Source: Acidovorax sp. NO-1
GTDB taxonomy: Bacteria > Pseudomonadota > Gammaproteobacteria > Burkholderiales > Burkholderiaceae_C
DNA: 64,000 nt
Direction of reading: 5' to 3'
NCBI RefSeq assembly: GCF_000238595.1
Contig: NZ_AGTS01000101.1
Location: forward strand, 1 to 64,000
The notes under the pieces are model-generated. The model saw only the letters and a program-made list of their open reading frames with translations. It had not been told where the DNA came from and did no database searches. Positions 6,789-64,000 of the stretch are shown piece by piece. The first letter of the stretch is position 1, and the number at the start of each line of letters is the position of its first letter. A program made the position numbers and the translations under genes.

Positions 6789-6896
6789 GTCGTTGTTTAG
6801 ACCACGATTATAGCCATAAAAAACGGGCCCTCAGCGCAGCGCTCGACAAATCGCTCGAGGCACCGTTGCGAAGACTCCTCGCGCCCCAGCCACCGA

Positions 6897-10964: not shown

Positions 10965-11015
10965 GCGCATGGCACCCTGCTGCGCTTGCAGCGCACCGGG
11001 GTCATCACACCACCC

Positions 11016-11075
11016 AAAAATGATAGCTACCAGCGCTTATCCAGTAAGCGCTGGCGGCTAATTTGGCTTGAAAAT
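11016..11075 (+). repeat. palindromic repeat, intergenic copy 1 (best hairpin)
   Basis: This is the clearest copy: ATAGCTAC followed by a perfect 10-bp hairpin CCAGCGCTTA (11030-11039) / TAAGCGCTGG (11045-11054) with a five-base loop, then CGGCTAATTTGGCTTGAAAAT. It lies between the convergent bdhA and SIMPL genes and ends exactly at the SIMPL stop codon, so it could serve as a bidirectional terminator. Confidence 0.85.
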
Positions 11076-11788: not shown

Positions 11789-12005
11789 GGTAGTTCCGTC
11801 CTTGCTTCGGGTGCGCGAGCCCGGTTTGGGCTGTGCGGAACGTCACCATAACCGCAGTGCGACCCACCGGCCATAAAGCGTGTTCGCTGCCATCGCGAAG
11901 CTGCGCAAAACATGTAACAGTTGGTCAAACCCAAGGTCAAAACACGAACTTCGGCGTTTCAACTGGTCAGAATCGGCTCTGTTACAAATTGGACTTGGGA
12001 TCAAG

Positions 12006-12737: not shown

Positions 12738-12747
12738 CCCGCTACCT

Positions 12748-39930: not shown

Positions 39931-39988
39931 GGCAGTCCCCTGTGCGTGAATAGGTGGCGCGCTGCCTGGCCTTGCAGCGCGTTGGATA

Positions 39989-40155
39989 TTCAGGCCGGTC
40001 TTCTGGCTTGGAGTCTTCTGGCCCCTGCGCCTTCCCGGCCTTGGGGGCCAGTGGCATTGAGCAGGGGTCATCATCCTTACAGCGTTGGGCACGCGGCGGA
40101 TTTGCACCGCCTTCCCGATTCTCCCGTTGCCGCCAAGCGGCATTGGGCACCTGAA
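39989..40155 (-). ncRNA. cobalamin riboswitch
   Basis: On the minus strand the conserved cobalamin-riboswitch landmarks appear in order: P1 strand TTCAGG (40155-40150), GGGAAGGCGGTGCAAATCCGCCGC, CAACGCTGTAAGG, GCCACTGG, CCGGGAAGGC and the closing AGCCAGAAGACCGGCCTGAA, which pairs back with P1. It is about 167 nt long and sits 59 bases upstream of the small disrupted gene and then cobT. High adenosylcobalamin should shut down expression of that transcript. Confidence 0.9.
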
Positions 40156-40205
40156 GCCGCGAATGGTAGCAGCCCGGTGCGCCCCATCCATTCAAGGACT
40201 GGATC

Positions 40206-43343: not shown

Positions 43344-44849
43344 TTACTCGGCGTCAGCTTGCGCGACAAGGGCGTCCAGCACACCGGGTTCGAAGCGCCG
43401 GGCAACGCCATCGGCCAGCCCATCAAACACAGCCTCCAGTGTGGGCGCATGGGCACCAAAAAGGGCTTTCAAAACAGCAGCGTCTTCCAGCAAACCGTGC
43501 AGGTACACGCCCAGCACATTGCCCGCCGGGTTTTGCCAGGCGATGCCGGGGATGACCTCGCGCGCCACATCGCCCTTGGCAGCCATGGCCGGGTGCTGGG
43601 CTGTCTGGCCGTGGTGGATTTCGTAGCCGGTGACGGGCACACCCGCCAATGCCGCCCACGCGCCCTGCACTGCACCCAACTGCGCCTGCGTGCGCTGCAC
43701 GGTCTTGGCGACTTCGAACGTGGTGACCAGGGGCAGCAGGCCCAGGCCCGGCGCATTGCCGTCGATGCCGGCGGTGTCGATCAGCGCCTCGCCCAGCATC
43801 TGCAGGCCGCCGCACACGCCCAGCACCGTGCCGCCCTGCCCCGCGTGCTGCGCTATGGCCTGATCCAGACCCTGTGCGCGCAGCCAGGCCAGGTCGGCGG
43901 CGGTGGACTTGGAGCCGGGCAGCACCACCCAGTCGGAGGGCTTCAGCCCGCCCAGGTCTGCCGGACTGCGCGCCCACAGCAGACGCACGCCGGGCACGTT
44001 CTTGAGCGGCTGGAACTCGTCGAGATTGCTGATGCGCGGGTAGGCCACCACGGCCACCGTGGTGTGCACGGCGCCCGCTGACAACGTGCGGTCATCGAAT
44101 ACACCATCTTCTTCGGGCAGACCGTGGCGCCACTGCATCGGTATGGTGGCCACCGTGGGCACGCCGGTCAGGTCTTGCAGCAACTGCGGCGCAGGGGCCA
44201 GCAGGCTGGCGTCGCCGCGAAACTTGTTGAGCACAAAGCCATGGATCAGCGCACGCTCGTCCTCGGGCAGCAGCGCCCAGGTGCCGTACAGGTGGGCAAA
44301 CGCGCCGCCCCGGTCGATGTCGGTCACCAGCAGGCAGCGTGCATCGGCATGGCGGGCCACGCGCATGTTGACGATGTCACTCGCGTGCAGGTTGATCTCT
44401 GCTGGCGAACCTGCGCCCTCGATCACCACCACGTCGTTCTCGGCACGCAGTGCATCCAGCGCTGCAGCGATCTGCGGCCACACCTTTTCGCTGCGGCCGC
44501 GCCAGGGCATGGCCGTCAGCTCGGCACTCACCTGCCCCATCAGCACGACCTGGCTGTGCGTGTCGGCCTCGGGCTTGAGCAGCAGCGGGTTCATGCGCAC
44601 CTCAGGCTCGGCGCGCGCGGCAAGCGCCTGGAAATACTGGGCGCTGCCGATTTCGCCCATCACACCCGCAGGGCCAGGCACCACACGTGCGTTGTTGCTC
44701 ATGTTCTGCGCCTTGAACGGCGCGACCTTGAGGCCCAGGTTGCTGTAGTAGCGGCATAGCGCGGTGGTGAGCCAGCTTTTGCCCGCACCGCTGGTGGTGC
44801 CCAGCACCATCACGCAACGGGCCAATTGGGGAGCAGAGTTTTCAGTCAA
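43344..44849 (-). CDS. cobQ: cobyric acid synthase CobQ
   Basis: A 501-residue CobQ, amidating adenosylcobyrinic acid a,c-diamide at four positions with glutamine. The N-terminal P-loop-like ATPase begins VMVLGTTSGAGKSWLTTALCRYYSNLG, followed by QAQNMSNNARV-type region (APFKAQNMSNNA), DIDRGGAFAHLYG, and the C-terminal class I glutamine amidotransferase has VLGVCGGLQMLGE (nucleophile Cys) and a His in GVYLHGLLED. The stop of the upstream DUF3037 gene overlaps its start by four bases. It is the last gene of the large minus-strand operon. Confidence 0.96.
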   Translation of the reverse strand: MTENSAPQLARCVMVLGTTSGAGKSWLTTALCRYYSNLGLKVAPFKAQNMSNNARVVPGPAGVMGEIGSAQYFQALAARAEPEVRMNPLLLKPEADTHSQVVLMGQVSAELTAMPWRGRSEKVWPQIAAALDALRAENDVVVIEGAGSPAEINLHASDIVNMRVARHADARCLLVTDIDRGGAFAHLYGTWALLPEDERALIHGFVLNKFRGDASLLAPAPQLLQDLTGVPTVATIPMQWRHGLPEEDGVFDDRTLSAGAVHTTVAVVAYPRISNLDEFQPLKNVPGVRLLWARSPADLGGLKPSDWVVLPGSKSTAADLAWLRAQGLDQAIAQHAGQGGTVLGVCGGLQMLGEALIDTAGIDGNAPGLGLLPLVTTFEVAKTVQRTQAQLGAVQGAWAALAGVPVTGYEIHHGQTAQHPAMAAKGDVAREVIPGIAWQNPAGNVLGVYLHGLLEDAAVLKALFGAHAPTLEAVFDGLADGVARRFEPGVLDALVAQADAE

Positions 44850-46019: not shown

Positions 46020-47092
46020 GAGGTCTCCCCTGAACCGTTTGAAACTCTGTGCGGGATGGTACGGCCCGGCAGCGCCTGCCATGCGGCCTGCAGCGCATCT
46101 TGAGCAGCAGGCGCCAGCACCCCCAGCCGCACGGTGCCGGGCAGGCCGAACGATGTTGCATCGCGCAGCTTGATGCCGCTGGCGCGCAGCGCGGCCAGGT
46201 CGCTTTGCAGCTTGACTGAGACGGGCTGCGCGCAAAAATAGTTGGCCAGGCTGCCGGCGTGCAAGGCCCAGCCCAGGTCGGTGCACAGGGCCTGCTGGCG
46301 CGCCTTCCAGGCGCCCAGAGTGCGCAGGCTGCGCACCAGCCACTGCTGCACGGTGGCTTGCGTCCACGCCTGCAGCAGTGCCACACCGTGGGCGCCCACG
46401 GGCCAAGAAGGGGCCAAGGCCGTCAGCCCCAGCGCCTGCTCTTCACCGTCTGGCGGTGCAATCGCATAGGCGGCACGTACGCCCGTCAGCCCCAGGGCCT
46501 TGTTGGGGGTCCAGAGTTGCCAGCTGGCCGATGGCAGGTACGGCTGCGGTGCGCCCGTCCATGCGCCCTCGGGGTCCAACCGCAGGGGGACATACGCGCA
46601 GTCGAGCACACGCCTGGCAGCAGCAGCATCGCCCGGCCGCCAAGCACCCAGCGCGGGGTCTTCCAGCCCCAAAGGGCTCGACGGCTCGCACGCCCATTGC
46701 AGGCCTGCTGCGGCGCCGCCGCCCCGCAGCACCTCCAGCCCCCGCACCTGTGCGGCCTGCGCGTAGTCGCCATAGCTGTATTGCGGCACGGCGACCTGCA
46801 CAGCGCCCTGCTGTGCGGCCAGCGCGGTGATGCGGTGGATGAACTCGCTGGCACTGGCCGCCAGCACGATACGCCCCGGCGCCACGCCATGGAAGGCGCC
46901 CAGGGCCTCGCGCAGCGCCGTGTAGGCCGGGTCGGGGTAGCGCGTGGCGTCGGCCGCCTGCACGGCGTGCAGCGCCTCAGGGCATGGCCCGCAGGCGTTG
47001 CTGTTGGTCGAGAAATCAAACACCGGAACGCCCGCAGCATCCGGCCCACCGTGCAATGGCACGGACGTGGAGAAACATCTTGGGGAGGTCAT
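46016..47092 (-). CDS. cobC: threonine-phosphate decarboxylase (CobC/CobD type)
   Basis: A 358-residue PLP-dependent enzyme of the class I/II fold that makes (R)-1-aminopropan-2-ol phosphate for the cobalamin side chain. Visible are STNSNACGPCPEAL (the family's N-terminal S-x-N-P/C region), RYPDPAYTALREAL, a glycine-rich AASASEFIHRI, and the Schiff-base lysine in LWTPNKALGLTGVRAAYA. Its ATG overlaps the cbiB stop by four bases. Symbol follows the Pseudomonas/Alphaproteobacteria usage; in Salmonella this enzyme is CobD. Confidence 0.9.
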   Translation of the reverse strand: MTSPRCFSTSVPLHGGPDAAGVPVFDFSTNSNACGPCPEALHAVQAADATRYPDPAYTALREALGAFHGVAPGRIVLAASASEFIHRITALAAQQGAVQVAVPQYSYGDYAQAAQVRGLEVLRGGGAAAGLQWACEPSSPLGLEDPALGAWRPGDAAAARRVLDCAYVPLRLDPEGAWTGAPQPYLPSASWQLWTPNKALGLTGVRAAYAIAPPDGEEQALGLTALAPSWPVGAHGVALLQAWTQATVQQWLVRSLRTLGAWKARQQALCTDLGWALHAGSLANYFCAQPVSVKLQSDLAALRASGIKLRDATSFGLPGTVRLGVLAPAAQDALQAAWQALPGRTIPHRVSNGSGETS

Positions 47093-48102
47093 GCGTGCGC
47101 CCAGGCAACCCCCACCAGCACCAGTAGCTGCAGGCCCGCCACCACGGGCACCATCGCCAGCACCACCTGCGTGCCCAGGCGCGCGGCACGCCGCGTATCC
47201 AGAGGCCCCGCCCGGCGGCCCTTGCTGTGCAGCGTGTACACACCGGGCTTGGCCAGGCGCACGTTCAACGCCAGCGCCATGGCCGCCATGGGCCAGCCGC
47301 TGTTGGGGGATGGCGTCTTGCGCGCCTGGCGGGCCAGCGTGGAAAACGGCAGGCCCCTGGCGACCACCGCCAGCAACAGGGCGGTGATGCGGGCTGGCAC
47401 CCACGACAGCACGTCGTCCGCCCGCGCCGCCCACTTGCCCGCCCATTGCCAGTAGCGCCCGCCGCGCATGCCGGGGTAGCCCCACATGGCATCGGCCGTA
47501 TTGGCAAAGCGGTACAGCGCAGCGCCCGGCAGGCCCAGCAGCGCAAACCAAAAGAGCGGCGCTACCACGGAATCATTCAGGTTCTCGGCCAGCGACTCGA
47601 TGGCCGATTCGCGCACCTGTCCGGCGGTGAGTGCGCTCACGTCCCGGCTCACCAGCCGGGCCAGCTGCGCGCGCCCGGCGGGCAGCGACTGACCCAGCGC
47701 CACGTCCACCGCCAGCACCTCGTCGTGCAACATGCGCCAGGCCAGCAGGGGTTTGAGCAGGAGCGCCAGCAATGCCATGGCAAGGAACGCATGGAGCATC
47801 AGCACGAGGTGCTGAATCCCCCAGGCAACTATCAAAACAATAGCTGCCAGCGCATACCAGACAAGCGCCGAGCGCCAAAAAACCTTGAAATCTCGGGCCA
47901 CAGGCACTGCGGGCGCCAGGCGGTCGCCCCACCACTGCAGCGCCTTGCCCATCCACACCACCGGGTGCCACGCGGCGGGGGGCTCGCCCAGCAAGTAATC
48001 CACCGCCAAAGCCAGGGGCACCGCCAAGAGAAACGCGAGCCAACCTGCGGCCCACATGCCGGGCAACATTGCGGGCCACAGATCGTGCAACGGCATGTTC
48101 AT
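47089..48102 (-). CDS. cbiB: adenosylcobinamide-phosphate synthase CbiB
   Basis: A 337-residue membrane protein with about five hydrophobic segments, attaching aminopropanol (phosphate) to adenosylcobyric acid. Signature parts: DYLLGEPPAAWHPVVWMGK, VRESAIESLAENLNDSVVAPLFW, ADAMWGYPGMRGGRYWQWAGKWAARADDVLSWVPAR and GWPMAAMALAL. It is also called CobD in Pseudomonas nomenclature. A palindromic repeat copy lies in its coding sequence (47828-47891). Its ATG overlaps the jetD stop by four bases, so translation of this B12 enzyme is coupled to the Wadjet operon. Confidence 0.95.
   Translation of the reverse strand: MNMPLHDLWPAMLPGMWAAGWLAFLLAVPLALAVDYLLGEPPAAWHPVVWMGKALQWWGDRLAPAVPVARDFKVFWRSALVWYALAAIVLIVAWGIQHLVLMLHAFLAMALLALLLKPLLAWRMLHDEVLAVDVALGQSLPAGRAQLARLVSRDVSALTAGQVRESAIESLAENLNDSVVAPLFWFALLGLPGAALYRFANTADAMWGYPGMRGGRYWQWAGKWAARADDVLSWVPARITALLLAVVARGLPFSTLARQARKTPSPNSGWPMAAMALALNVRLAKPGVYTLHSKGRRAGPLDTRRAARLGTQVVLAMVPVVAGLQLLVLVGVAWAHA
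47828..47891 (+). repeat. palindromic repeat copy inside cbiB
   Basis: ACAATAGCTGCCAGCGCATACCAGACAAGCGCCGAGCGCC-like stretch then AAAAACCTTGAAAT matches the element consensus. In cbiB it is read in the antisense direction and encodes part of a membrane helix (FKVFWRSALVWYALAAIVLIV). Confidence 0.6.
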
Positions 48103-52300: not shown

Positions 52301-52818
52301 TGCCCCTGGGCCTCCTTGAGCCAGAACACCTGCGCCAGCGTCACCGTCTGGTCAAACCCCGCGTTGTGAAACACCCCCAGGATGACCGAATAGCTGCCCG
52401 CATCGCGCAGGGCCACGGGCTTAGCGCTACCGCTGGTTTCGTTGCGCTCGGACTTGAAATGCCCCAGCACATAAGAGCGCAAGGAGCGCTCACGCGCATC
52501 GGCCCCGGCGGCCTTGTTGTAGGCAATGCGGTGCGCTGGCACCAAGAGCGTTGTGACGGCATCGACCAGCGTGGACTTGCCCGAACCAATATCGCCCGTC
52601 AGCAGCCCGTTGCGGCCGTCCAGCGCCAACGACCACACACGTTTGTCAAACGTGCCCCAGTTGAACACCTCCAGCCGCATGAGCCGAAAACCCGAGAGCG
52701 CCGCAACTGTGGGAGCCGCCGCCCGCTCCTGGGCCCCGCTCGGCCCGGCAGGGGCAAGCGGGGCCGCGGGGGCCGCCGGGTCGCCCGCAAACAGGTCGCC
52801 CTCGTCACTGCTGTGCAT
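49309..52818 (-). CDS. jetC: Wadjet SMC-like ATPase JetC
   Basis: A 1169-residue MukB/SMC-like ATPase. The head domain shows Walker [17 protein letters not shown] (about 73-88), and near the C-terminus the ABC signature [24 protein letters not shown] and Walker [16 protein letters not shown], separated by long coiled coils of Gln/Leu/Arg-rich sequence. In Wadjet it extrudes DNA loops to measure circular plasmid size before JetD cleaves. The N-terminus is Pro/Ala-rich and may be disordered. It overlaps jetB by 14 bases. Confidence 0.94.
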
Positions 52819-53473
52819 CGTCTGCCTCCGTCTGCGAGGTGCTCAAGTGCTGCTGGTAGGCCTGCAGGCGCTCGTCAAAATCGGCCAGCCACTGGGCATC
52901 GACAAAGGCCTTCAGGATGCGGCGCACCTCGTACACCGGTGCCTGGCCCGCATGGGTGGCCTTGAGGCGGCGCACAAAGCCCAGCTCAATCACTTTGTTC
53001 AGGTGCGTTTCGATCTGGTCGATCAGCCGCGCATCGTTGGTGCTGGCGGGCATGAAGATGCGCACCATCTCCACCACCTCGTCGCGCGCCAGAATCAGCC
53101 GGGCTTCGCCGCCGGTGGCATCCAGCTCCGCCAGCTTCTTGCGCAGCAGGGCCAGCAGCAGGCTGACGTGAAAACTCAGGGGCTGGCGGCGCACCAGGCG
53201 CGGCAACTTGGCGGCCGCCTCGTCCTCCTCTTGCACGCGCGAGCGCACAAAGGCATAGCCTTCGGCCTCGTCCACCACCAGGTCCAGCGCCAGCACCGCC
53301 ACGTAGTCTGCCGCCCGTGCACGCAGCGCCTGCAGGGCGTCCCACAGCGCAGCGTCTTCGTCGCGGTAGACCACGCCACGCAGCAACGGGATGACCACGG
53401 CAGACAGATCCCACTGCGGTAAGGGGTTGGCGATTGCATCGATGGGCGCTGCGTCGTTCAGGTCGTCGCTCAT
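52805..53473 (-). CDS. jetB: Wadjet protein JetB (DUF4194, MukE-like)
   Basis: A 222-residue protein of the DUF4194 family, corresponding to the MukE-like partner of Jet[28 protein letters not shown], then [44 protein letters not shown] and the winged-helix part [15 protein letters not shown]. The ATG at 53473 has AGGACTTGA upstream; a TTG at 53479 would overlap the jetA stop. It should bind JetA and JetC in the loop-extruding complex. Confidence 0.9.
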
Positions 53474-53475
53474 GC

Positions 53476-54933
53476 TCAAGTCCTCACAAAGATCACACGC
53501 GGCAGCGTGGCGCTGCGTTGCACGCCGTCGGATGCGGTCCAGTGCACCGTCTCTTGCACAGCTTCATCCACCACGGCCTGCGCGGCCACGCTGGCCAGTT
53601 GCAGGTAGGCCACCAGCTCGCCCAGCCCCTGCTGCAGCGGACGCATGTGCAGCAACTCACCCAGGCTGACCTGGGCCCGCGTTTGCAGCGCTTGCCGCAC
53701 ATGGGCAGCCAGCGCGGCCTTGTCCACCCGCACCTGGGTAAAGAGCGCCGCAGCGTCCACCCCAGCGTCGCCTACCTGCACGGGAGCATCGTTCAGCGCT
53801 ACGGCGGCCGCAGGGCGAAACAGCGGGCGCTCCAGGGGTAACTGCACGGCGGGGTGCAGGGCGTCCACGCCGAACACCTCGCCGGGCGGGGGTGCATCGC
53901 GCAGCGCCACGGCCCGCGCTTCGATGCCGTGAAGCAGCTCCATGATGCGGCGGTTCTCCAGCCAGGCCTGGTCGTCCAGAAACCGGCGCAACTGCTGCGA
54001 CAACTGGGCCACCGTGCGCTGGGCGTGTTCGCCCGCCTCCAGCCAGTCGTAGTGCACGCGGCGCAGCCGTGCATCGGGGGCCAGTTGCGCCACCGGGTCG
54101 AGGGCCAGCACGTGGTCGAGCAGCGCGCTCAGTTGCTCTTGCCGCGCCTGCGACATGAGGAATTCCCAGAACGCCCGAAAGCTCTTGCCCTGGTCGGATT
54201 CGGCAATGGCGTCGCGCTCGCCCAGGATTTCGCGCAGCAGCGCACCCCGGCCCTGCGTGGGGCCACCATCCCACAGTGCGATGCGTTCGCGCACCTTGCG
54301 GTCGAGCTGGCGAAAGTTGTGCTCCACCTCCCGAAAATCGCCCAGCAGCTCGCGCGCCAGGCTGGTGAACTGCTGGAACCGGTCTTTGAGCGCGGTGTCG
54401 TCCAGCAGCGGCATGTGTCCGCCCAGCACCTGGGCGATTTCCGCGTCGATGGCATCGCGGCGCTTGTGCAGTTCAGCGATGCGGGTCTCGGGGTTGGTGT
54501 CGGTGCCTTCGCTCATTTGCTGCAGCAGCGCAAACAGCGTGAGCAGGCGCGATTCGGTGCCCACAAAGCTGCGCTCTGTCAGGCTGGCCAGCCAGGTCAA
54601 GGCCCGCTCGGTGGCGGGGGTGAGGTCGAACTGCGGCTCGTCCGTGCCCGGGGGGTAGAACTTGCGCAGCCAGCCCTTGTCGTGCGCGGCCCAGTCGTTC
54701 AGATAGTCCAGCGCCGACCGGGGGAAGGCCTGCTCGCCCAGGCGTTCACGCAGATCGTAAAGCGTGTCGTTCAGCGCCTCCACCAGGTTGGCCTGCGCCA
54801 TGGAGCGCACATTCGGCGCAATGAAAACGCGGTGCAGAAAACTGGCCACCAACGGCGCATGCTCGGCCACCAGCAGCCGCCAGGCGGGGTGCTGGCGGCG
54901 CATTTGGTGCAGCGTGGTGTAGTCCAGATCCAT
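53476..54933 (-). CDS. jetA: Wadjet protein JetA (DUF3375, MukF-like kleisin)
   Basis: A 485-residue DUF3375 protein, the kleisin-like subunit of Wadjet. It starts MDLDYTTLHQMRRQHPAWRLLVAEHAPLVASFLHRVF, with WLRKFYPPGTDEPQFDLTPATERALTWL, coiled-coil region and a C-terminal domain ending LPRVIFVRT. The longer frame to 55020 is rejected because its extra residues come from a dispersed CTTCGACAGGCTCAG-type repeat. It is the first gene of the jetABCD set and follows cobO by 176 bp, the largest gap in this part of the operon, where a defence-specific promoter could lie. Confidence 0.92.
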   Translation of the reverse strand: MDLDYTTLHQMRRQHPAWRLLVAEHAPLVASFLHRVFIAPNVRSMAQANLVEALNDTLYDLRERLGEQAFPRSALDYLNDWAAHDKGWLRKFYPPGTDEPQFDLTPATERALTWLASLTERSFVGTESRLLTLFALLQQMSEGTDTNPETRIAELHKRRDAIDAEIAQVLGGHMPLLDDTALKDRFQQFTSLARELLGDFREVEHNFRQLDRKVRERIALWDGGPTQGRGALLREILGERDAIAESDQGKSFRAFWEFLMSQARQEQLSALLDHVLALDPVAQLAPDARLRRVHYDWLEAGEHAQRTVAQLSQQLRRFLDDQAWLENRRIMELLHGIEARAVALRDAPPPGEVFGVDALHPAVQLPLERPLFRPAAAVALNDAPVQVGDAGVDAAALFTQVRVDKAALAAHVRQALQTRAQVSLGELLHMRPLQQGLGELVAYLQLASVAAQAVVDEAVQETVHWTASDGVQRSATLPRVIFVRT

Positions 54934-54980
54934 GCGAAGTTTGAAGAAGGGTCGGGGGCTTTGCACGAGCGGCGCCCAGG

Positions 54981-55004
54981 CTTCGACAGGCTCAGCCCGA
55001 CCGG
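54981..55004. repeat. dispersed CTTCGACAGGCTCAGCCCGA-type element between cobO and jetA
   Basis: CTTCGACAGGCTCAGCCCGA followed by CCGG belongs to a short repeat seen widely in GC-rich proteobacteria (recalled, not searched). It lies in the 176-bp gap upstream of jetA, next to the presumed insertion junction. No other structure or ribosome site is obvious in the gap. Confidence 0.55.
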
Positions 55005-55109
55005 TAGTGGGTGTCGACAATGCGCCAGGTCGATACCGGGCGTGTTCGCCGCACCTTCACAAAGCGGGCAACACAGTCAGGCCGCATTGTCGGCCATGCG
55101 CGCGCCCCT

Positions 55110-55679
55110 TTAGTCCTCAATACCGCGCTGCGCGGGAATGCCCGCCTTGAACGCGTGCTTGACCATCTGCATTTCGGTCACGGTGTCGGCCAGTTCGATG
55201 ATCTCGGGCGGGCAGCGGCGGCCGGTGAGGCACACATGCACGTCCTTGGGCCGCTCGCGCAGGGTCTGCAGCACGCCGTCCAGCGGCAGCCAGCCGTAAA
55301 TCAGCGGGTAGGTGATCTCGTCGAGCACCACCAGAAAGTGCTCGCCCGACAGGATGGCGGCGCGCGCCTTCTCCCAGCCGTCGCGCGCGAGCTGGGCAGA
55401 GTGCTCCAGGTCCTTGCTCTTCCAGCTGAAGCCGTCGCCCAGCCCCTCGATGGGCAGGCCAATCTGCTCGAACATGCGGTGCTCGCCAAAGCGTGCGGTG
55501 GGCACCTTCATGAACTGGAAAATCTTCACGGCCTTGCCCCGGCCGTGCGCGCGCAGCGCCAGGCCAAAGGCGGCCGTGCTTTTGCCCTTGCCATCGCCGG
55601 TGTTGACGATGACGATGCCCCGGCGTTCGCCCTCGGGCTTTTCGTAGCGTTTTTCGGTGGGCGGGGTTTCGATCTGCAT
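55110..55679 (-). CDS. cobO: cob(I)yrinic acid a,c-diamide adenosyltransferase CobO
   Basis: A 189-residue P-loop corrinoid adenosyltransferase (CobA/BtuR/CobO family) that attaches the 5'-deoxyadenosyl ligand. The ATP site [49 protein letters not shown] and [20 protein letters not shown] are intact. ATG 55679 gives [12 protein letters not shown]; the longer frame would enter the cobN-like gene. It follows the CobN-like gene by 29 bases and precedes jetA. Confidence 0.95.
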
Positions 55680-55708
55680 GGTGTCGATTCTTTCAGAGAG
55701 GCCGGGCA

Positions 55709-58700
55709 TCACACGCCGGCCGGTTGCAAAGGGGAAGACAGCGAGGACGGACGGCGCGCCTGCCACGCGGCGCCCGCCATCGCCACCAGGGCCATGACCA
55801 GCAGGGCCACGATGCCCGCCATGCGCTCCACGGGGCTGGGCTCGGTGGCGCTGTCAGAAGGGGCTGGCTCGGGCTGCCGCTCCAGCAACACGCCCATGGT
55901 AGGCACGGCGGGCGCGGAAGGTGGTGCTTCTGCCTGGGCGGGCGGCGCGGGCAGGTCAGCGGCGGGGGGCGCGGGCTGTGGCACTGCCAGGGCTGGCGAC
56001 TGCGGCGCAGCAATGGCCATGCCAGCAGCTGGGGTCAGCTCTACGGCCTCACCACGTGCCGCTCGCTCCACCCAGCGGCGCACGCTGGGCAGTTCGGCCG
56101 CCAGCGGCGCGGCACGCGTCAGTTCCTGGTACATCTGTGCCAGTTGTTTTTGCGTGTCGGCATCGGCCTGCCAATAGCCCTGGCGCTGCGCCTGCACCAG
56201 GCGCTCCAGCGACTGGGCGTAGGCCTGTGGATGTTCTTTCAGCCACTCGGGCAGGCCCAGCTGGTGCTTGTCGCGCACCAGCACGTCGTAGAAGCTTTGC
56301 CAATGGTCGCTGCGCACCGTGTCGGGCGCCACGGCCTGCCAGCCCCAGGCGAACTGCACGGCCTTGAGCACCTGCAGCGTGCCCGAATAGCCCTCGGCCT
56401 TCTGCGCCTGGAGCCAACCCGGGTGCAGGTAGCGCGACTGCATCTCCAGCGCAATGGCGCGCTGTGCAGTTTCGGTGGTGGGCTCACTCACATCCCGCAG
56501 CTGGGCCACATGCAGCTCCAGCCCCTGCGGCCGGCCGGCCACACGGGCTGCGGCCGACAGGCCACCCAGGTACTGGAACGGGTCGTCCGAGCTGACCATA
56601 GCGTACAGGTTCGAGCTGCGCGACAGGATGGCTGCGTCGGTGCGGCGCAGGTGCGCTCCCAGCGCCTTCGCCGCCGTGCCGCCCGCAACCCCCGTCACCG
56701 GCTCGCCCTCCAGATAAGGCTGGCTCATCCGCTCGAGGAACATCTGGCCCAAGCGCGCATCGTTGGTTTGCAGGCCGTCGCTTTGCACCGCGTCGGACAG
56801 GCCGGTGCCATAGTCGCCCACCGCATTGCCGAACGAGCGCACGCGCGCCAGTTGCTCGGCCTGCGCGCGGGGCACGCCCTGCTTGCGCAGCTCCTGGCCG
56901 ATCTGCGCGGTGGTGCGCGCGATCACATTGCCGGGCTCGGCCGTGGCGGCCTGGGCCACCGCACGGTCCAGCAAGCCCATCAGCGCGGGGAACTGGTCGC
57001 GGTAGGAGCCGGTGATGCTCATGAGCACATCGACGCGCGGGCGCTTGAGCTCATCGGCGGCAATGGTCTCCACGCGCACCGGGCGGCCCGAGTCGTCCCA
57101 CACCGGGCGCATGCCCAGCGCCACAAGCGCCTGCGCTTCCATGATGCCCTGGTGGCGCAGCGTTTCGCCCGCCCACAGCGACAGCGCCATACGCTCTGGC
57201 GCCCGGCCACCATGGCGCGCCTGGTAGTCCTTGAACCAGTCGTTGAACAAGGTCTGCGCCACGGCATAGGCCTGGCGCGTGGGCAGGCGGCTCGGGTCCA
57301 GCCCCGTGAGGTTGCGGCCTGTGGGCAGGCTGTCGGGGTTGCGGATGGGGTCGCCGCCGTAGGCTGCGGGCAGGAAGCGGCCCTCCAGCCCCGCGAGCAG
57401 GCCGGGCATTTCGCCTTCGGTGGCCAGCAAGCGCTCCAGCTCCTGCGCGCGTTGCGCAAGCTGCAGCAGCGCGGGCGTGTCGATGGGTTTGCGCGCGGCG
57501 CGGTTGGGCACATGGTCTTCGGCGCGCACCAAGCCGTCTTGTGCTGGCGACGCGTCAGGCGGCACGGGGCGCAGGTCCAGCACGCTGGCGGCCTGCGCAT
57601 CGGTCAGCGCCACTTCCAGCCAGCGCGCGGGGCGTGCAGCCAGCACCGCGTCGTGCTTGATCAGGAAGGCTTCGTCGATGTCTTCGCCCAGCGCCTCGAT
57701 CAGCGGCTTGCGCAGCGCCTGCAGGATGGTCTCGCGCCGCTGCTCGGGCGCGGGCACGCGGCCGAACACGGCCAGGCCCTTGGGCTGCGAGCTTTGCGCG
57801 AGCTGGTCCAGGTAGGGGTGCAGGATTTCAAGAAAGCCGTGGAAGTCGGCCGCGATGCGCTCGGCGCTCCAGCCCAGGTCGCGGTGCAGCTGGTGCTCCA
57901 CAAACTGCGCCACCAGCTGCTTTTCGAGCGCGCGGCGCGTGGGGCCTTCGTCCACGGTTTCCCATTCGTGCATCACCTCGTGCATGTGGGCCATGCGCGC
58001 CTCGAAGCCCGCCGGGGCAAACACCGGCGTGCGGTGGCTCACCAGCACGGCGCGGCCCCGGCGCTTGGCGGTGAGGGCCTCGCCCAGGTTGTCCACGATG
58101 TAGGGATAGACCACGGGCAGGTCGCCCAGGGGCAGCAGCGCGTCGTCGTGCACATCCAGCGCGCGCGCCTTGCCGCCCGCCCATTCCTGCGTGCCGTGGG
58201 TGCCGAAGTGGATGAGCGCGTCGGCCTCCAACTGCGCCCACAGGTACACGGACAGGTAGTGGTGCGACAACGGCGCCTTGGACTTGTGCATGAACGGGTT
58301 CTGGCCCAGGCGCAGCGTTTCTTCGCGCGGGGGCTGGGGCAATACCGAGAGCTTGCCCACCTGCAGACGCGGGATGGCGAACACTTTTTCGCCCTGCCAC
58401 TCGACCACGTAACGGCTCTTTTCGGGCGTGCCCCAGTGCGCGTTCATGCGCTCGCGCACGGCCTTTGGCAGCGTGGCCAGGTGCTGCTCATAACGCGCCA
58501 GCGGCAGCGCGGCGGCCTGGTCGTTTTGCAGCAGCGCGCGCACATCGGCGCCGGGGTAATACGCGGCGAGCAGCGGCTTGAGCCCATCGATCCAGCCCTG
58601 CTCGGGCACCTGCTGTGTGCGGTAGCCCGCCTGGGCCAGGCCGCCCGAAACCTGCTCTAGGCTGCGCGGCACGTTGAGGAACGAGGCGCCGAAGTTGGTG

Positions 58701-59926
58701 CCACCCGGCGGGTAGTTGTAGACCATGGCCACCAGGCGCTTGTCGGCGGCGGGTTTGGTCTGCAGCGCGATCAGGCGCCGCGCCTTCGCGGCCACGGCCT
58801 GGGCCTGGCGCTCGATGAGGCGGAAGTCTTGCCCCTCGGCGCCGTGGGCAGCGACCAGGACCGGGTCGATGGCGCCTGCCGCCTCAGGCTGCGCTAGGTA
58901 GAACGGCACATCGGACAGCGACAGGCCCGTGTCGCTGGCTTCCCACGCTGCCGCATCGCCTGCCCGGTAAGGCTGCGTGCCCAACAGCGGCACGCCCCAG
59001 CGGGCCAGCAGCGGCTGCAGCGCAGCGGCCTGGGGCACAAGCTGGTGCAGCACCAGGACCGAGGCATGCAGGCGGCCCGGGCCGGTGCCGCTTTCGGGGG
59101 GCAGCTCCAGCACCTCGGCCAGCGTCTGCGCCGTGACCTGCTGGCCAAAGGCCGCATAGGCGAACAGGCCTTGCTGGCGGAAGGTGCGCAGCCAGGCATC
59201 GAGCCATTCGGTGCTGCCATCGACAAAATGGTGGCGGTGCACCAGCACGGCCACGACCGGCAGGCTCCGCAGTGCCGGCTCACCCTGGCGCCAGGCCTCC
59301 AGCGCGGCGGCGTTGGGCAGCAGGCGGGGCGCATCGGGGTGGTAGATGCCCCGAGGGGGCAGGATGTCGGGCGCGGGCAAGGCGGACATGGCAGCACCCG
59401 CCACGGTGGCCCGCGCTAGGGCGATGGCGTTCTTCAGATTGCGCGGGCCGCCCGCCTGCAGGTAAGCCACCATGCGGGCGGGAGCCTCCAGCGCAGACAG
59501 GTCAACAGCCGGTGTGCCCGCAGGCACCCAGACCACGCGGCCCGGGGCGCTTGCGGCACGGGCATCGAGCTGAGCGCCCACCATGCGGCGCAGGCGCGCC
59601 TCCACGCTGGCGTGCGGAGCATCCACCCACACCATGGCGGCGCCCGCCAGAGCGCGCTCCAGCTTCTGGGCCTGGGCCGCGTCCAGTACCGCCGGGCCGG
59701 CCAGCGGGTAGTCGATGTGCACAAAGCCCAGGCCCGCGTCGGAGGCCAGGCGCAGCACCATGGCCGTGCGCGGGGTGGTGGTGATGTCGGACGTGAGCCA
59801 GAGCAGCACCGGCGCTGTTTTATCGGCGCCGCCCGCTGCCAAGGCTTTCTCAGCCTGGACGGCATGCACCAGCGGCGCAGCCAGCAGCAGGCACCACAGT
59901 GCCGCGCGCAAGATCAGTGTCTTCAT
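55709..59926 (-). CDS. CobN-like chelatase-family protein, exported and membrane-anchored
   Basis: A 1405-residue protein of the CobN/ChlH large-subunit family ([127 protein letters not shown]). Unlike cytoplasmic CobN it begins with a clear signal peptide ([22 protein letters not shown]) and ends with a Pro/Ala linker and a transmembrane helix ([20 protein letters not shown]) plus a basic tail, so the body should be periplasmic. It overlaps an ExbD-like gene by four bases. This plan resembles HmuS-type proteins rather than cobalt-inserting CobN, and no CobS/CobT-type ATPases are in the window. Confidence 0.9.
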
Positions 59927-60309
59927 GGCTTGGCGGGTGCCGGCGTGGCGGAGCCACCCGCGCCACCGGCCGAAGCTCCAGCTGGAGCAGCGCCCGTTTC
60001 AGGGATGTAGACGATATTGCCGTCTTCCAGCTTGTAGGCCACGCCCGCACGCACGCCCTGCCCTTGCGCTGCGCTGCCAGCGCCCTTGAAGCGCACTTCC
60101 TTGCCCTGCTCGCGCACGACCACTTCCATGTCGGGCTGGCCCGCATTACGGATGATGCTCACGCTTTCATTGGCACTCGTCTGGCTTTGCACGGCCACGG
60201 CCGTGAGCAGTGCCACCACCAGCACCAGGAACACGTCCACCAGGTTCACGGCCGACAGCATCGGATCGTCATCGTCCTCGGCGAGGACGCTTAGGTGCTT
60301 CAAGGTCAT
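59923..60309 (-). CDS. DUF2149 / ExbD-TolR-like membrane protein
   Basis: A 128-residue protein with one N-terminal transmembrane helix DPMLSAVNLVDVFLVLVVALLTAVA. The aspartate in NLVDVFLVLV sits where ExbD, TolR and MotB carry their proton-coupling Asp. The periplasmic part contains DMEVVVREQGKEVRFKGAG and a Gly/Ala/Pro tail. The opening AEDDDDPM and this helix fit DUF2149. It overlaps both the ExbB-like and CobN-like genes by four bases, so the three should form one complex. Confidence 0.85.
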   Translation of the reverse strand: MTLKHLSVLAEDDDDPMLSAVNLVDVFLVLVVALLTAVAVQSQTSANESVSIIRNAGQPDMEVVVREQGKEVRFKGAGSAAQGQGVRAGVAYKLEDGNIVYIPETGAAPAGASAGGAGGSATPAPAKP

Positions 60310-60773
60310 TGCGCCACCCCGCGCTCCTTGCGCACCACCAGCAGCTCGGCCAGCAGCCAGCGGCGGCGCACCGAGTACACCACCAGGCCCACCGACGCAG
60401 CCGCTAGCGCCAGCACCACGCCCGCAAAGGCGCCGCTGAAAACGGCGAGGGCCTGCTGGCCGTTGCCCGCCGCCACGCTCTGCAGCGCAGGGCCCAGCGG
60501 GATCATCGTGGCGATCAGCCCCAGCATGGGCGACAGACGGCTGAGCAGGCGCACGGGCTCCACCTGGCGCACTAGTTGCAGTTCCAGCTCTTCCATCGAC
60601 AAACCCGGAGCCACGCGCAGCGAACGGTACTGCGGCTGGCGCCAGCGCTGCCACGCCTCCATGAGCGTGGCGCCGCCCGACCACAACGCGTAGACAAACG
60701 CCAGCCCCACCAGCACCAGCACCGGCCACAGCAACGACTGCGCGACCTGCGAAAAACCCGATTCGATGTTCAT
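60306..60773 (-). CDS. MotA/TolQ/ExbB-family proton channel protein
   Basis: A 155-residue membrane protein with three helices (LLWPVLVLVGLAFVYALW; LSPMLGLIATMIPLGPALQSV; VFSGAFAGVVLALAAASVGLVVYSV), the second and third being the MotA/TolQ/ExbB core (LSPMLGLIATMIPLGPAL then FAGVVLALAAASVGL). It is the ExbB half of an ExbB/ExbD-like pair with the DUF2149 protein. It starts 29 bases after btuD and overlaps the next gene by four bases. Confidence 0.88.
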   Translation of the reverse strand: MNIESGFSQVAQSLLWPVLVLVGLAFVYALWSGGATLMEAWQRWRQPQYRSLRVAPGLSMEELELQLVRQVEPVRLLSRLSPMLGLIATMIPLGPALQSVAAGNGQQALAVFSGAFAGVVLALAAASVGLVVYSVRRRWLLAELLVVRKERGVAQ

Positions 60774-60802
60774 GCTTCCACTCCCTCAATCCATGTGTTG
60801 TT

Positions 60803-61597
60803 TCATTGGCTGTGCTTGCGCTGCATCGATGGCAGCGCCATCCACATGCCATCCAGATGCCGCACGTGGATGCGGTGATCAAACACGCTCTCCAGCGCCG
60901 CGTGCGTGGCGGGTGCATCGCAGGCGCCCTGGTGCAGCACGCGGCCCTGTGCCATCACCACCATGTCGTCGGCCTGCAGCGCGAGCGACACCTCGTGCAG
61001 CACGCTGACCACCGTGCCGCCCGCATCGACCAGCGCGCGCATGGTGTGCAGCCAGTCGGTCTGGTGCGGCGGGTCGAGGTTGGCCAGGGGTTCGTCCATC
61101 AGCAGCACTCGCGCCTGCACGGCGAGGGCGCGGGCCAGCAGCACGCGCTGGCGCTCGCCGCCCGACAGCTGCGACAGCGGGCGGTGGCGCCAGTCCCAAG
61201 CCTGGGTGGTGCGCAGCGCCTGCTCGACGGCGGCATGGTCGGCAGCACTTGGCGGGGCCAGCCAGGGCTGGTGCGGCAGACGGCCCAGCATGGCCACGTC
61301 GTAGCTCGTGAGGTCGTCGGCCGAGCCTTCGTTCTGCCCCAGCCAGGCGAGCTGGCGGGCGCGTTCGCGAGCCGGGATCTGCGCCAGCGGGCGGCCCAGC
61401 AATTGCACCTCGCCCTGCACGGCTGCGCGCGGCAGCAGGCCCGCCAGCACCTTGAGCAAGGTGGACTTGCCCGCACCGTTGGGGCCGACGATGCTGGTCC
61501 AGCGCCCGGCGGGCAGTTGCAGGTCAATGCCCTGCAATATCAAGCGGTTTCCGATGCTTGCGCCTATCTGGCTTGCCTTGATAGCTATTGAATTCAT
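60803..61597 (-). CDS. btuD: cobalamin/iron-siderophore ABC transporter ATPase (BtuD-like)
   Basis: A 264-residue ABC ATPase: Walker A VGPNGAGKSTLLKVLAG, Q-loop LGQNEGSADD, signature LSQLSGGERQRVLLARALA, Walker B VLLMDEPLANLDPPHQ and the switch histidine in VSVLHEVSLAL. The FecE/BtuD subfamily and position beside btuC, btuF and cob genes point to corrinoid uptake. It overlaps the btuC stop. The N-terminus (MNSIAIKASQIGASIG) is encoded by a palindromic repeat copy. Confidence 0.9.
   Translation of the reverse strand: MNSIAIKASQIGASIGNRLILQGIDLQLPAGRWTSIVGPNGAGKSTLLKVLAGLLPRAAVQGEVQLLGRPLAQIPARERARQLAWLGQNEGSADDLTSYDVAMLGRLPHQPWLAPPSAADHAAVEQALRTTQAWDWRHRPLSQLSGGERQRVLLARALAVQARVLLMDEPLANLDPPHQTDWLHTMRALVDAGGTVVSVLHEVSLALQADDMVVMAQGRVLHQGACDAPATHAALESVFDHRIHVRHLDGMWMALPSMQRKHSQ
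61536..61597 (-). repeat. palindromic repeat copy at the start of btuD
   Basis: On the minus strand ATGAATTCAATAGCTATCAAGG, GATAGGCGCAAGC and CGCTTGATATTG match the element. It contains the btuD start codon and encodes the first ~16 residues in the sense direction. Confidence 0.5.
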
Positions 61598-62628
61598 AGC
61601 GCACCGCCTTGCGATGTGCGCCGGTGCATGAGCCACAGCAGGTAGGTGCCGCCCAGGGCCGCCGTGAGCACACCCACGGGTAGCTCCTGCGGCGCGAGCA
61701 CCCAGCGCGCGAGGATGTCGGCCGCCATGAGCAGCACCGCGCCCATCAGGCTGGAGAGCACGATGTGCCGCTCGTGCGTCACGCGGACGATGGAGCGCAC
61801 CAGGTGCGGCGCGGCCAGCCCCACAAAGGCGATGAGCCCGGTCTGCGCCACCGCCGTGCCCGTGGCCAGCGCCATGGCGGCCACCAGCCCCACGCGCATG
61901 GGCATGAGCGGCAGGCCCAGGCTGGCGGCCGTGGCCTCGCCTAGCGTGAGGCCATCGAGCGCGCGCGCAAGCATCCAGGCCACCAGCGAGCACAGGGCCC
62001 ACACGGCTGCCATCAGCACGCAGGCCATCCAGCCCACAAAGGCGGTGCTGCCCAGCGTGAAGGCTTGCATGGCCTGAAGGATGTCGGGCGAGGCCAGCTC
62101 CACAAGGTCACGCACGGCCCCCAGCACCACGCCCACAATCACGCCCGCGAGCAGCAGGCGCAGCGTGTGCTGCACCCCGCGCGCGAGGATCAGCGTGAGC
62201 ACCACCGCCCCCGCCGCCCCCAGAAATGCCATGCCCGTGATGCCGATGCGGGCCATCCACTGCGCCGCCACCGGCGACACGCCGAACAGCGCCATCGCCA
62301 CGGCACCACCCAGCGCGGCGCCCGAGGCGCTGCCCAGCAGGTACGGATCGGCCAGCGGGTTGCGAAACAACCCCTGCGCCACCGCGCCCGACAGGCCCAG
62401 CAGCGCCCCCGCCAGCCACGCGCCCAACGTGCGCGGCAGGCGGATGTCCCACACGATCTGCCAAGCCACGGGGTCGCCGTGCATGCGCAGCACGCTGTCA
62501 AAACCCGTGCTGCCCACGCTGGCGCCACACAGGGCCAGCAAGACGCTGGCCAGCAGCAACCAGGCAGCGCACCACGCGGCGCGGCGGGTGGCGGAACTGG
62601 TAGGCACACCGATGGAAGCGCCGGTCAT
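61594..62628 (-). CDS. btuC: cobalamin ABC transporter permease (BtuC/FecCD family)
   Basis: A 344-residue permease with about ten helices: LASVLLALCGASVG, DIRLPRTLGAWLAGALLGLSGAVAQGLFRNPLADPYLLGSASGAALGG (FecCD signature), GVIVGVVLGAVRDLV and QTGLIAFVGLAAPHLVRSIVRVTHERHIVLSSLMGAVLLMAADILARW, the ATPase-coupling region. It overlaps btuF and btuD by four bases each, giving a compact BtuFCD set. A siderophore substrate is an alternative, but the cobalamin context favours corrinoid. Confidence 0.92.
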   Translation of the reverse strand: MTGASIGVPTSSATRRAAWCAAWLLLASVLLALCGASVGSTGFDSVLRMHGDPVAWQIVWDIRLPRTLGAWLAGALLGLSGAVAQGLFRNPLADPYLLGSASGAALGGAVAMALFGVSPVAAQWMARIGITGMAFLGAAGAVVLTLILARGVQHTLRLLLAGVIVGVVLGAVRDLVELASPDILQAMQAFTLGSTAFVGWMACVLMAAVWALCSLVAWMLARALDGLTLGEATAASLGLPLMPMRVGLVAAMALATGTAVAQTGLIAFVGLAAPHLVRSIVRVTHERHIVLSSLMGAVLLMAADILARWVLAPQELPVGVLTAALGGTYLLWLMHRRTSQGGAL

Positions 62629-63527
62629 GGGGCCTTTTCCACCAAGCAGCGTGCCATGATGCGCGCGGCTTCGGCCATGCGCGGCCCAGGGCGCACCACC
62701 ACATCGGAGTCGCCAGAACCAAACACGCACAGCCGGTTCTCGCGGATTGCGCGCATGGTGGCCCAGCCGGGGTACGGCACCATAGCCTGCATGCTGCGGT
62801 TGCCGATCATGATGATGTCGGGGTTGGCGCGCACGACGAACTCGGGGTTCAGGCGCGGAAACGGGCCCAGCGACGCGGGCACCACGTTGCGCACGCCCAG
62901 CCGGGTGAGCGATTCGCCAATGAACGAGGCCTCGCCTGCCGCATAAGGCCCACGGCTCACTTCAAAATACACGCGCGCGTTCTTTGCCTTGGGCGGCAGC
63001 GATTGCGCCGCTGCCAACACGCCCGCGTCGATCACGCGCCAGAGGCGGTCGGAGCCTTGCGCGCGGGGCACGCCCAGCAGGTCGCTCACGGTGCCCAGCA
63101 CGCGGCGCACGTCGGCATGCGTCTTCGGCTCCAGCTGCACCACCGTGAGGCCGAGCGCCTCCAGCCGGTCGCTGGCGCGCGAGCTGACGGACATGAGCAC
63201 AACGTCAGGCTTGAGTGCCACAACGGCCTCGATGCTCGGGTCCAGCCCGCCGCCCACCTTGGGCAACTTGCCAATCACCGCCTCCGGCCAGTTGGAATAG
63301 CGGTCCACACCCACCAACCGGTGACATTGCTCCAGCTCGCACACGCTTTCGGTCAACGACGGCAACAGGCTCACGATGCGCTGCGGCGGGCGCGGCAACG
63401 AGATCTCGCGGCCCTTGTCGTCCTTGATCTGCACCGGCTGCGCCTGGGCCAGCCCGGCCATGAGCAGGCCCAGCGCGATGAGGATGGCGATCACCCAGAG
63501 GATGCGGCGCACGGGGGTGGGTTTCAT
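62625..63527 (-). CDS. btuF: cobalamin-binding periplasmic protein BtuF
   Basis: A 300-residue exported binding protein: signal segment ILWVIAILIALGLLMAGLAQA, then RIVSLLPSLTESVCELEQCHRLVGVDRYSNWPE and VGGGLDPSIEAVVALKPDVVLMS, the helical-backbone-linker fold of BtuF-type proteins. It is the binding partner of the downstream btuC/btuD genes. The ATG overlaps the cobU stop by one base (TGATG). ATG 63527 is preferred because the longer frame places the leader internally. Confidence 0.9.
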   Translation of the reverse strand: MKPTPVRRILWVIAILIALGLLMAGLAQAQPVQIKDDKGREISLPRPPQRIVSLLPSLTESVCELEQCHRLVGVDRYSNWPEAVIGKLPKVGGGLDPSIEAVVALKPDVVLMSVSSRASDRLEALGLTVVQLEPKTHADVRRVLGTVSDLLGVPRAQGSDRLWRVIDAGVLAAAQSLPPKAKNARVYFEVSRGPYAAGEASFIGESLTRLGVRNVVPASLGPFPRLNPEFVVRANPDIIMIGNRSMQAMVPYPGWATMRAIRENRLCVFGSGDSDVVVRPGPRMAEAARIMARCLVEKAP

Positions 63528-64000
63528 CACCGGGGTTCTTTCAAGGTAAGAGGCAGGCCTGCGGCCATGAGCGTAACGCGGGGGCACACCTGCGCCACCT
63601 GCTGGTTGAGTATGCCCAGCGCATCCACAAAGGCGCGCACCTCACGCCCCATCGGGATGACCCCCAGGCCAATTTCATTGCCCACCAGAACAACGGGGCC
63701 GGGGGATTTCCGAATTGCTCCTAAAAACATAGCTGATTGCGCTTTCCAGTCAAGCGCTAGCGCCTGTTTTTGTTCAATACTCATGGATTCCACACCCACG
63801 GGCATGGTCCAGTGGGTGAGCCAGAGCGTGAGGCAGTCCATCACCACCAGCGTCTGCGGCGTGCTGAAGCGCACGAGGGCTGCCGCCACGTCGCGCGGCT
63901 CTTCCACCGTCTCCAGGCCGGGCACGCGCTCGGCGCGGTCACGCTGGTGGCGGGCGATGCGCTCGCGCATCTCGTCGTCCCAGGCCTGCCCGGTGGCGAT
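63527..64000 (-). CDS. cobU: adenosylcobinamide kinase/guanylyltransferase, C-terminal part (5' end beyond window)
   Basis: About 157 codons up to the right window edge, reading YIATGQAWDDEMRERI-type sequence (ATGQAWDDEM visible), RIARHQRDRAERVPGLETVEEP, VVMDCLTLWLTH and VLVGNEIGLGVIPMGREVRAFVDALGILNQQVA, all characteristic of CobU/CobP (nucleotide loop assembly; phosphorylates and guanylylates adenosylcobinamide). The N-terminal P-loop is beyond the edge. A palindromic repeat copy is embedded in the reading frame. It is the first visible gene of the long operon. Confidence 0.92.
   Translation of the reverse strand: MATGQAWDDEMRERIARHQRDRAERVPGLETVEEPRDVAAALVRFSTPQTLVVMDCLTLWLTHWTMPVGVESMSIEQKQALALDWKAQSAMFLGAIRKSPGPVVLVGNEIGLGVIPMGREVRAFVDALGILNQQVAQVCPRVTLMAAGLPLTLKEPR
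63720..63780 (+). repeat. palindromic repeat copy inside cobU
   Basis: CATAGCTGATTGCGCTTTCC, AGTCAAGCGCTAGCGCC and TGTTTTTGTTCAAT match the element. In cobU it is read antisense and encodes SIEQKQALALDWKAQSAMF, a stretch between the conserved CLTLWLTH and VLVGNEIG motifs where CobU proteins tolerate length variation. Confidence 0.7.

Follow-up and report, generated by a model that had tools for sequence, protein, structure and literature searches.

A riboswitch-headed trio of CobN-like, ExbB-like and DUF2149 genes in Acidovorax sp. NO-1, possibly a proton-driven chelatase machine for corrinoid salvage

In Acidovorax sp. NO-1, positions 1-64,000 of contig NZ_AGTS01000101.1 (this entire 64,000-nt stretch is called the window) carry a gene for a CobN-like protein among genes for corrinoid uptake and cobalamin (B12) synthesis. 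It overlaps the second of two genes for small membrane proteins, one DUF2149 and one ExbB-like, and the three are called the trio here. The locus raises the question of why a chelatase-fold protein should be coupled to parts of a membrane motor, and what it would act on. We propose, with somewhat less than even confidence, that the trio is a BtuS/HmuS-type, membrane-bound chelatase machine that serves corrinoid salvage and is driven by protons in the periplasm. Papers identified by PMC number are cited from parts of their text.

The CobN-like protein and its membrane partners

The three genes are read in the order ExbB-like, DUF2149, CobN-like:

60306..60773, (-): ExbB/TolQ/MotA-like channel protein, 155 residues (profile-profile match to ExbB)
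59923..60309, (-): DUF2149 protein, 128 residues, one transmembrane helix with Asp25, ExbD-like in layout only (PF09919, 80 bits)
55709..59926, (-): CobN-like (BtuS/HmuS-type) chelatase-fold protein, 1405 residues (PF02514, 857 bits, E 2.8e-257; tree; hydropathy; AlphaFold core)
55754..55837, (-): its C-terminal transmembrane stretch, residues 1364-1391 (hydropathy)

Both junctions are four-base ATGA overlaps, and the coordinates and frames given for them by the first-pass annotation, made from the sequence alone, were right. The DUF2149 gene start falls within a longer open reading frame (59923-60918). The same annotation had described a signal peptide and a C-terminal anchor on the CobN-like protein, and hydropathy scans (19-residue windows, threshold 1.6), the sole basis of the signal and anchor calls, predict both: residues 1-23, a signal-like N-terminus, and residues 1364-1391 exceed the threshold. 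In each of the 70 trio-type CobN rows measured, a set outside which HmuS itself stood, the strongest C-terminal hydrophobic stretch starts 21-48 residues before the end, although 10 of the 70 stay at or under 1.6 there (lowest 1.32). Among 33 cytosolic CobN and BchH rows, no value exceeds 1.34, which is reached some 85 residues before the end. These targeting signals point to a membrane-anchored protein that would face the periplasm, contrary to the cytoplasmic location that had been named as a refuter of the first-pass reading.

The AlphaFold core (residues 75-1272; predicted local distance difference test, pLDDT, 90.7) is closest to Mycobacterium tuberculosis CobN (7c6o; Z 49.0, 2.6 A, 997 residues), followed by ChlH (4zhj; Z 47.3) and HmuS (9p4s, Z 40.5; 9d26, Z 39.9, 1002 residues, 3.2 A). 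In a FastTree phylogeny of 104 sequences, the 23 CobN-like proteins closest to the window's own (the window clade, support 1.0) sit in a 54-row group (0.988) that also includes HmuS and further DUF2149-partnered proteins, and 27 cytosolic CobN, 6 BchH and 17 group B rows fall apart from it. Group B is a second B12-linked clade of trio CobN-like proteins, and a weak branch (0.376) connects it to the 54-row group. IQ-TREE and topology tests were run on 45 rows, hand-selected from the 104 to thin near-copies. Under a mixture model, a quick search without bootstrap united all 36 trio-type rows (Shimodaira-Hasegawa-like approximate likelihood ratio test, SH-aLRT, 97), with the HmuS rows nested within (83), in line with the kinship to HmuS that had been claimed. 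Placement among cobalt-inserting CobN proteins had been set beforehand as a result that would count against the first-pass reading; a joint clade of the window clade and cytosolic CobN was rejected (approximately unbiased, AU, test, p 1.5e-8). The closest named relatives of the protein are from Acidovorax and Paenacidovorax (<=96% identity).

The window clade and group B, both B12-linked, do not form a sister pair (AU p 1.6e-59), and an ancient B12 role of the trio, later changed in some branches, is conceivable. Seven alignment columns are specific to these two clades, among whose shared residues is Ala at HmuS position 1014 (23/23 window-clade and 16/16 group B rows vs 1/27 others counted). 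Such residues are only suggestive as a mark of corrinoid use, because 0-13 columns of this kind were obtained for other pairs of clades.

Two sites of HmuS could be located in the CobN-like protein by alignment:

58196..58198, (-): His577, equivalent of HmuS His538, in the motif HFGTHG
56582..56587, (-): Asp1114-Asp1115, equivalent of HmuS Asp1208-His1209

The first is present in 103/103 rows that cover the column. The second lies in the HmuS motif LSLDHxxEFMGG, which the window protein does not match, having Asp1115 in place of His1209. Asp occupies this site in 23/23 window-clade, 17/17 group B and 25/27 cytosolic CobN rows, and His in HmuS, its Aureibacter homologue and 5/6 BchH; 29 other trio proteins divide into 21 with Asp and 8 with His. 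We considered His versus Asp as a clean code for porphyrin versus corrin and rejected it, as proteins neighboured by HmuY and ChaN genes carry Asp. In the alignment used for the HmuS ligands, which leaves out the fragments L048, L051 and L028, the site-1 haem ligands Met79 and His254 are not kept in the window protein; Met79 is missing from the Aureibacter hmu homologue as well. The Met-rich insertion of HmuS (domain IV) has no counterpart either, residues 690-833 (144 residues) containing no Met at all. Measured against the criteria published for HmuS (PMC12583661), the window protein does not count as an HmuS.

The ExbB-like sequence has no Pfam or NCBIfam match of its own at E 0.001. Its kinship appears in profile comparison, where hhalign aligned 90 trio ExbB-like homologues with a canonical ExbB profile at probability 92.6 and E 4.6e-7, and the MotA/TolQ/ExbB assignment of the first-pass annotation stands. 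Residues 7-38 and 106-137 exceed the hydropathy threshold, and T89, P92, G85 and W139 are invariant across the 90 sequences. The DUF2149 protein has one such stretch (residues 14-46) containing Asp25, which is 98% conserved across 90 sequences. The transmembrane Asp that had been compared with ExbD/TolR holds up, but kinship with ExbD could not be established by hhalign, AlphaFold or Foldseek, and we dropped the description of DUF2149 as a proven ExbD.

Linkage of the three genes is strict. Among 45 named loci fetched by their CobN gene, one (L111) stood outside the partner check; 38 of the other 44 have both partner genes, and in the remaining six the contig starts inside the CobN gene (5) or at most about 400 bases upstream (L097), which leaves 38/38 among loci with enough flank. 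Both partner genes are present in 89 of the 100 loci examined overall. The 11 exceptions comprise four weak DUF2149 matches below the family cut-off and without CobN, which were set aside (L035, L063, L064, L066), five contigs starting inside CobN, L097 and one true exception, the Cupriavidus locus L143. Loci L016-L066 were picked by DUF2149 and are a biased sample in this respect; the CobN-picked named loci are free of this bias. One of the 89, L040, has DUF2149 and ExbB-like genes (9868-10890) with no CobN in 20 kb, and another effector of the pair may exist there. Its neighbours (pyrroloquinoline quinone dehydrogenase, histidine kinase, opgC) are uninformative for function.

Riboswitch control and the genomes that carry the trio

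The trio had been noted to lie with btuFCD and cob genes, and its setting proved firmer than that. The cluster order is btuB-cobB-cobU-btuFCD-trio-cobO, with cobB and btuB just past the window edge on the contig, and a cobalamin riboswitch on the same strand (67453-67690), just outside the window, heads it. The best matches of btuB are B12 receptors.

63527..64000, (-): cobU-like gene, continuing past the window edge (name presumed by eye from the translation)
62625..63527, (-): btuF-like periplasmic binding protein (PF01497; NCBIfam BtuF under cut-off)
61594..62625, (-): btuC-like permease (PF01032; top NCBIfam match BtuC, under cut-off)
60803..61606, (-): btuD-like ATP-binding cassette (ABC) ATPase (PF00005; NCBIfam haem, corrinoid and B12 ABC ATPases, all under cut-off)
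55110..55691, (-): cobO, corrinoid adenosyltransferase (TIGR00708 and PF02572 above cut-off)
47089..48102, (-): cbiB, adenosylcobinamide-phosphate synthase, in the cluster part downstream of a Wadjet insert (TIGR00380 above cut-off)
43344..44849, (-): cobQ, cobyric acid synthase (NF001989 and TIGR00313 above cut-off)

This setting recurs. Genes of the btu and cob families neighbour the trio in 40/45 CobN-fetched loci. Scans of whole loci of 3.5 to 24 kb, in which the distance between riboswitch and trio varies, found a cobalamin riboswitch in 14/15 window-clade loci (exception L038), 12/16 group B loci (exceptions L024, L025, L061 and the 3.5-kb fragment L028) and 1/15 other trio loci (L041). 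Five loci (Parazoarcus, two Azonexus, Dechloromonas and a Comamonadaceae plasmid) are riboswitch-headed stand-alone trio units without cob neighbours. In three stand-alone units (L092, L095, L108) a ZrgA-family metal-binding gene lies between riboswitch and exbB, and L094 has an open reading frame similar to it. L041 belongs to a third trio lineage, near a Runella trio (L145) in the tree, and runs from cobalamin riboswitch to TonB receptor to trio (5889-13556); its genome (G643) carries a second trio, L044, without riboswitch. L025 has a thiamine pyrophosphate riboswitch and a TonB receptor directly after its group B trio (4950-12676). A CobW-type GTPase gene occurs in L058 and L143, with homologues in L024 and L039.

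CbiC, the precorrin-8X methylmutase, is required for corrin ring synthesis. It was found in 4/21 window-clade genomes, the window's own included, and in 4/14 group B genomes with B12 context, one of which is 82% complete; completeness is not stated for 17 named genomes. Most genomes with a B12-linked trio appear to be corrinoid salvagers, because 27/35 lack CbiC, a count that leaves out L089 and three group B genomes of non-B12 context without CbiC (G143, G256, G668). CbiC occurs in 5/25 remaining genomes of the same survey. Across the class it occurs in 42/369 genomes, from which 8/35 is not clearly different (p 0.06), and a cobalamin riboswitch in 269/369. CobB, which acts on early corrins, is above cut-off in 9/10 CbiC-less trio genomes vs 32/70 controls (p 0.015, kinship uncorrected; the other kind of trio is present in the controls G010, G066 and G075). 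This enrichment is consistent with scavenging of incomplete corrins, but it is unspecific.

The window genome itself makes corrin rings. Another contig (C53) carries a ring-making cluster with CbiD above cut-off, CbiC, five tetrapyrrole methylases and a CbiX-family class-II chelatase (PF01903). We considered whether the trio mainly supplies cobalt for de novo B12 synthesis; this idea is suggested by this genome alone and was set aside in view of the 27/35 genomes without CbiC.

Other features of the cluster touch the trio less directly. A second strong cobalamin riboswitch (118 bits) lies inside the window at 39976-40169 (-). Between cobO and cbiB, PADLOC identified a complete Wadjet type I set:

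48099-55020, (-): JetA 53476-55020; JetB 52805-53479; JetC 49309-52818; JetD 48099-49397

Among 38 related loci, 2 (L080, L087) have Wadjet at this junction and 8 an insert of ~4 kb; many have just ~70-400 bases there. A TonB receptor and a PepSY_TM membrane protein lie between cobO and cbiB in L070 (14848-18583) and L036 (1197-4932), and PepSY_TM homologues occur inside the cluster in 8 related loci. Siderophore reductases are found among PepSY_TM proteins. The pair may belong to a corrinoid or metal system, and a reduction step is possible.

A proposed machine and its competitors

The trio as a whole is probably, though by no means certainly, directed at corrinoids. In the mechanism that we propose, the large CobN-fold subunit would hang in the periplasm by its C-terminal helix. 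A proton channel of the ExbB-like and DUF2149 proteins would drive its conformational cycle, replacing the ATP-driven AAA+ motor that cytosolic CobN uses (CobS/CobT). Corrinoids arriving via BtuB would bind the central cleft near His577 and Asp1115, the cycle would let metal enter or leave the ring, and BtuFCD would then carry the product over the inner membrane. The likeliest net reaction would be insertion of cobalt into, or metal exchange on, scavenged corrinoids that are metal-free or wrongly metallated. Metal-free corrinoids occur naturally, and the periplasm is without ATP. AAA+ motors (CobS or ChlI) power class-I chelatases (PMC7689651), and a strictly linked ExbB-type channel with a transmembrane-Asp partner would be a natural replacement. 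Proton coupling is suggested by the ExbB homology of one subunit and the conserved transmembrane Asp of the other.

Among the possible reactions, insertion or exchange is favoured because most users appear to scavenge, the 1209 site resembles that of CobN and some units come with a metal-binding protein; even so, we regard it as rather doubtful. Removal of metal is disfavoured, and unlikely, because stripping cobalt would harm a B12-starved scavenger. The first-pass annotation had proposed that the machine remodels or dechelates corrinoids or another tetrapyrrole. Dechelation fared poorly, since Met79, His254, His1209 and the Met-rich insertion are missing and stripped cobalt would be of no evident use to salvaging genomes; remodelling of corrinoids before uptake would fit what was found. 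In its most specific form, the proposal is of a periplasmic, proton-driven cobaltochelatase that (re-)metallates scavenged corrinoids ahead of their import, as one branch of a module family tuned to haem, zinc, perhaps nickel, and corrinoids; in this form it is a speculative and somewhat improbable reading.

Several observations weigh against the corrinoid machine. No riboswitch lies within ~20 kb of the trio in L038 (window clade) or L061 (group B), CobB is frequent in controls as well, and the window genome has the ring pathway (CbiC, CbiD), so that supplying cobalt could be the task of its own trio. Proteins beside HmuY and ChaN genes have Asp at the 1209 site too, so this residue is no corrin marker. 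As for the motor, hhalign gave DUF2149 against one single ExbD a non-significant probability of 1, with the transmembrane Asp in register, and the DUF2149 AlphaFold model is poor (pLDDT 67.5), without a PDB match in Foldseek at E 0.001. In L143 (5473-14537), on a Cupriavidus replicon, genes for a membrane-type CobN, a CobW-type protein and a cytosolic CobN follow one another, with neither ExbB nor DUF2149 in the 15-kb locus. Finally, haem dechelation in B. theta lysate required NADH, not ATP (PMC12583661), and recombinant HmuS was reported active after heterologous expression; the proton motor may therefore be dispensable. HmuU and HmuV, the hmu counterparts of the two partners, have been assigned to TonB-type import (PMC12583661) and are said to possibly affect activity (PMC13227078).

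An alternative is a periplasmic dechelatase for metal acquisition, which would strip cobalt from an organic chelate imported by a TonB-dependent receptor, with the riboswitch turning it on when B12, and hence cobalt, is short. In its favour, the same trio stands in other metal settings. Those linked to haem have HmuY beside it in L016, L017 and Aureibacter, and ChaN in L049 and L054. PA1922-PA1925 of Pseudomonas aeruginosa are induced 45- to 147-fold by mutation of znuA and have a Zur site (PMC4542158), their place in the Zur regulon also being given in PMC9431628. On a Runella plasmid the trio lies between hypF and hypCDE, with a neighbour of sub-cut-off likeness to nickel transporters, possibly a nickel setting. 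In addition, HmuS strips iron (PMC12583661), a ZrgA-family gene heads some B12-riboswitch trios, a receptor and PepSY_TM pair occurs in 8 related loci, and the window genome would require cobalt for its corrin rings. However, the 27/35 B12-trio genomes without CbiC should need little cobalt ion, the cluster BtuB is closest to B12 receptors, and the second catalytic His of HmuS is replaced by Asp. We consider this explanation unlikely, though worth keeping in mind.

A corrinoid-handling device without metal chemistry is about equally improbable. Here the CobN-like part would bind, and the motor would drive release, hand-over from BtuB to BtuF or recovery from tight complexes. The position of the trio between btuFCD and cobO in one cluster, the prevalence of salvagers among its users and the fact that ExbB-type motors elsewhere move cargo would all suit it. 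On the other hand, a conserved chelatase cleft with an invariant His577 is more than binding requires, the ZrgA neighbours point to metal, and BtuFCD alone suffices in E. coli.

Much less probable is an HmuS-like haem dechelatase placed in a B12 cluster by chance: the tree puts the protein nearer HmuS-type rows than cytosolic CobN and the partner set equals that of the hmu operon, but the HmuS-specific Met79, His254 and Met-rich insertion are missing, His1209 is Asp, and control is by cobalamin, not iron. Least probable of all is a conventional CobN that inserts cobalt late in B12 synthesis, despite nearby cob genes and a score above cut-off for NCBIfam NF004644, 'cobaltochelatase subunit CobN' (1480 bits vs 1248), for the protein has an export signal and a C-terminal transmembrane helix and a clade with cytosolic CobN is rejected. 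It is hardly the biosynthetic chelatase of its genome, because it is the only PF02514 member there, CbiD and a CbiX-type chelatase are encoded elsewhere in that genome, and CobT has no match. A need for dedicated CobS/CobT had been named as a refuter of the first-pass reading; CobS itself was not searched for, and the fused Cob-chelatase subunit family gave two weak matches in the genome, neither above cut-off. The NCBIfam CobN label is thus an annotation trap.

Known relatives and what the trio would mean

Parts of this picture are already published, namely BtuS and the HmuS dechelatase. HmuS of Bacteroidota (PMC12583661; PDB 9d26) shares with the window protein the CobN/ChlH fold, N- and C-terminal membrane anchors, the catalytic His538 and a common clade, and its operon has linked ExbB-like and DUF2149 genes (HmuU, HmuV), the same part set that the first-pass annotation had recognized. 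It differs in the Met79/His254 haem site, the Met-rich insertion and His1209, where the window protein has Asp, and in being accompanied by hmuYR, whereas the window trio has a cobalamin riboswitch and btu/cob neighbours. BtuS was traced to Rodionov et al. 2003, as quoted in PMC6460266, as a third, non-biosynthetic CobN-related type, anchored to the membrane on the periplasmic side; the window protein likewise falls in a clade apart from cytosolic CobN and ChlH/BchH. As quoted there, BtuS was predicted for metalloporphyrin salvage, and ExbB is mentioned nowhere in the text of PMC6460266. B. fragilis btuS1 btuS2 mutants grew poorly on haem iron, and protoporphyrin was still made (PMC6460266).

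PA1922-PA1925 (PMC4542158, PMC9431628) combine TonB receptor, CobN-like, ExbD/ExbB-annotated and DUF2149 genes in one operon, as here, but under zinc control. Cytosolic CobN, working with CobS/CobT, shares the fold (7c6o, Z 49.0) and Asp at the 1209 site (25/27 rows), but has no export signal or C-terminal helix, uses an ATP motor and forms a separate clade. The ExbBD-TonB and TolQR-TolA motors share an ExbB-type channel subunit and a small partner with a conserved transmembrane Asp; here, a chelatase-fold enzyme takes the place of TonB or TolA as linked periplasmic protein, and DUF2149 is ExbD-like in layout only. Among the matches listed in full-text searches of mostly non-subscription literature, we met no description of a B12-riboswitch trio or of a proton drive for a chelatase; B12-controlled BtuS genes may already appear in the 2003 BtuS paper.

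Deleting a stand-alone riboswitch-trio unit would put the question directly to the test. If the proposal is true, metal chemistry on tetrapyrroles can draw on the proton gradient and take place outside the cytoplasm, and an enzyme joins the effectors of the ExbB/MotA motor family. Non-biosynthetic 'cobN' genes, a pitfall in predicting B12 pathways, would also acquire a testable role, as would the BtuS family and PA1922-PA1925 of the zinc regulon.

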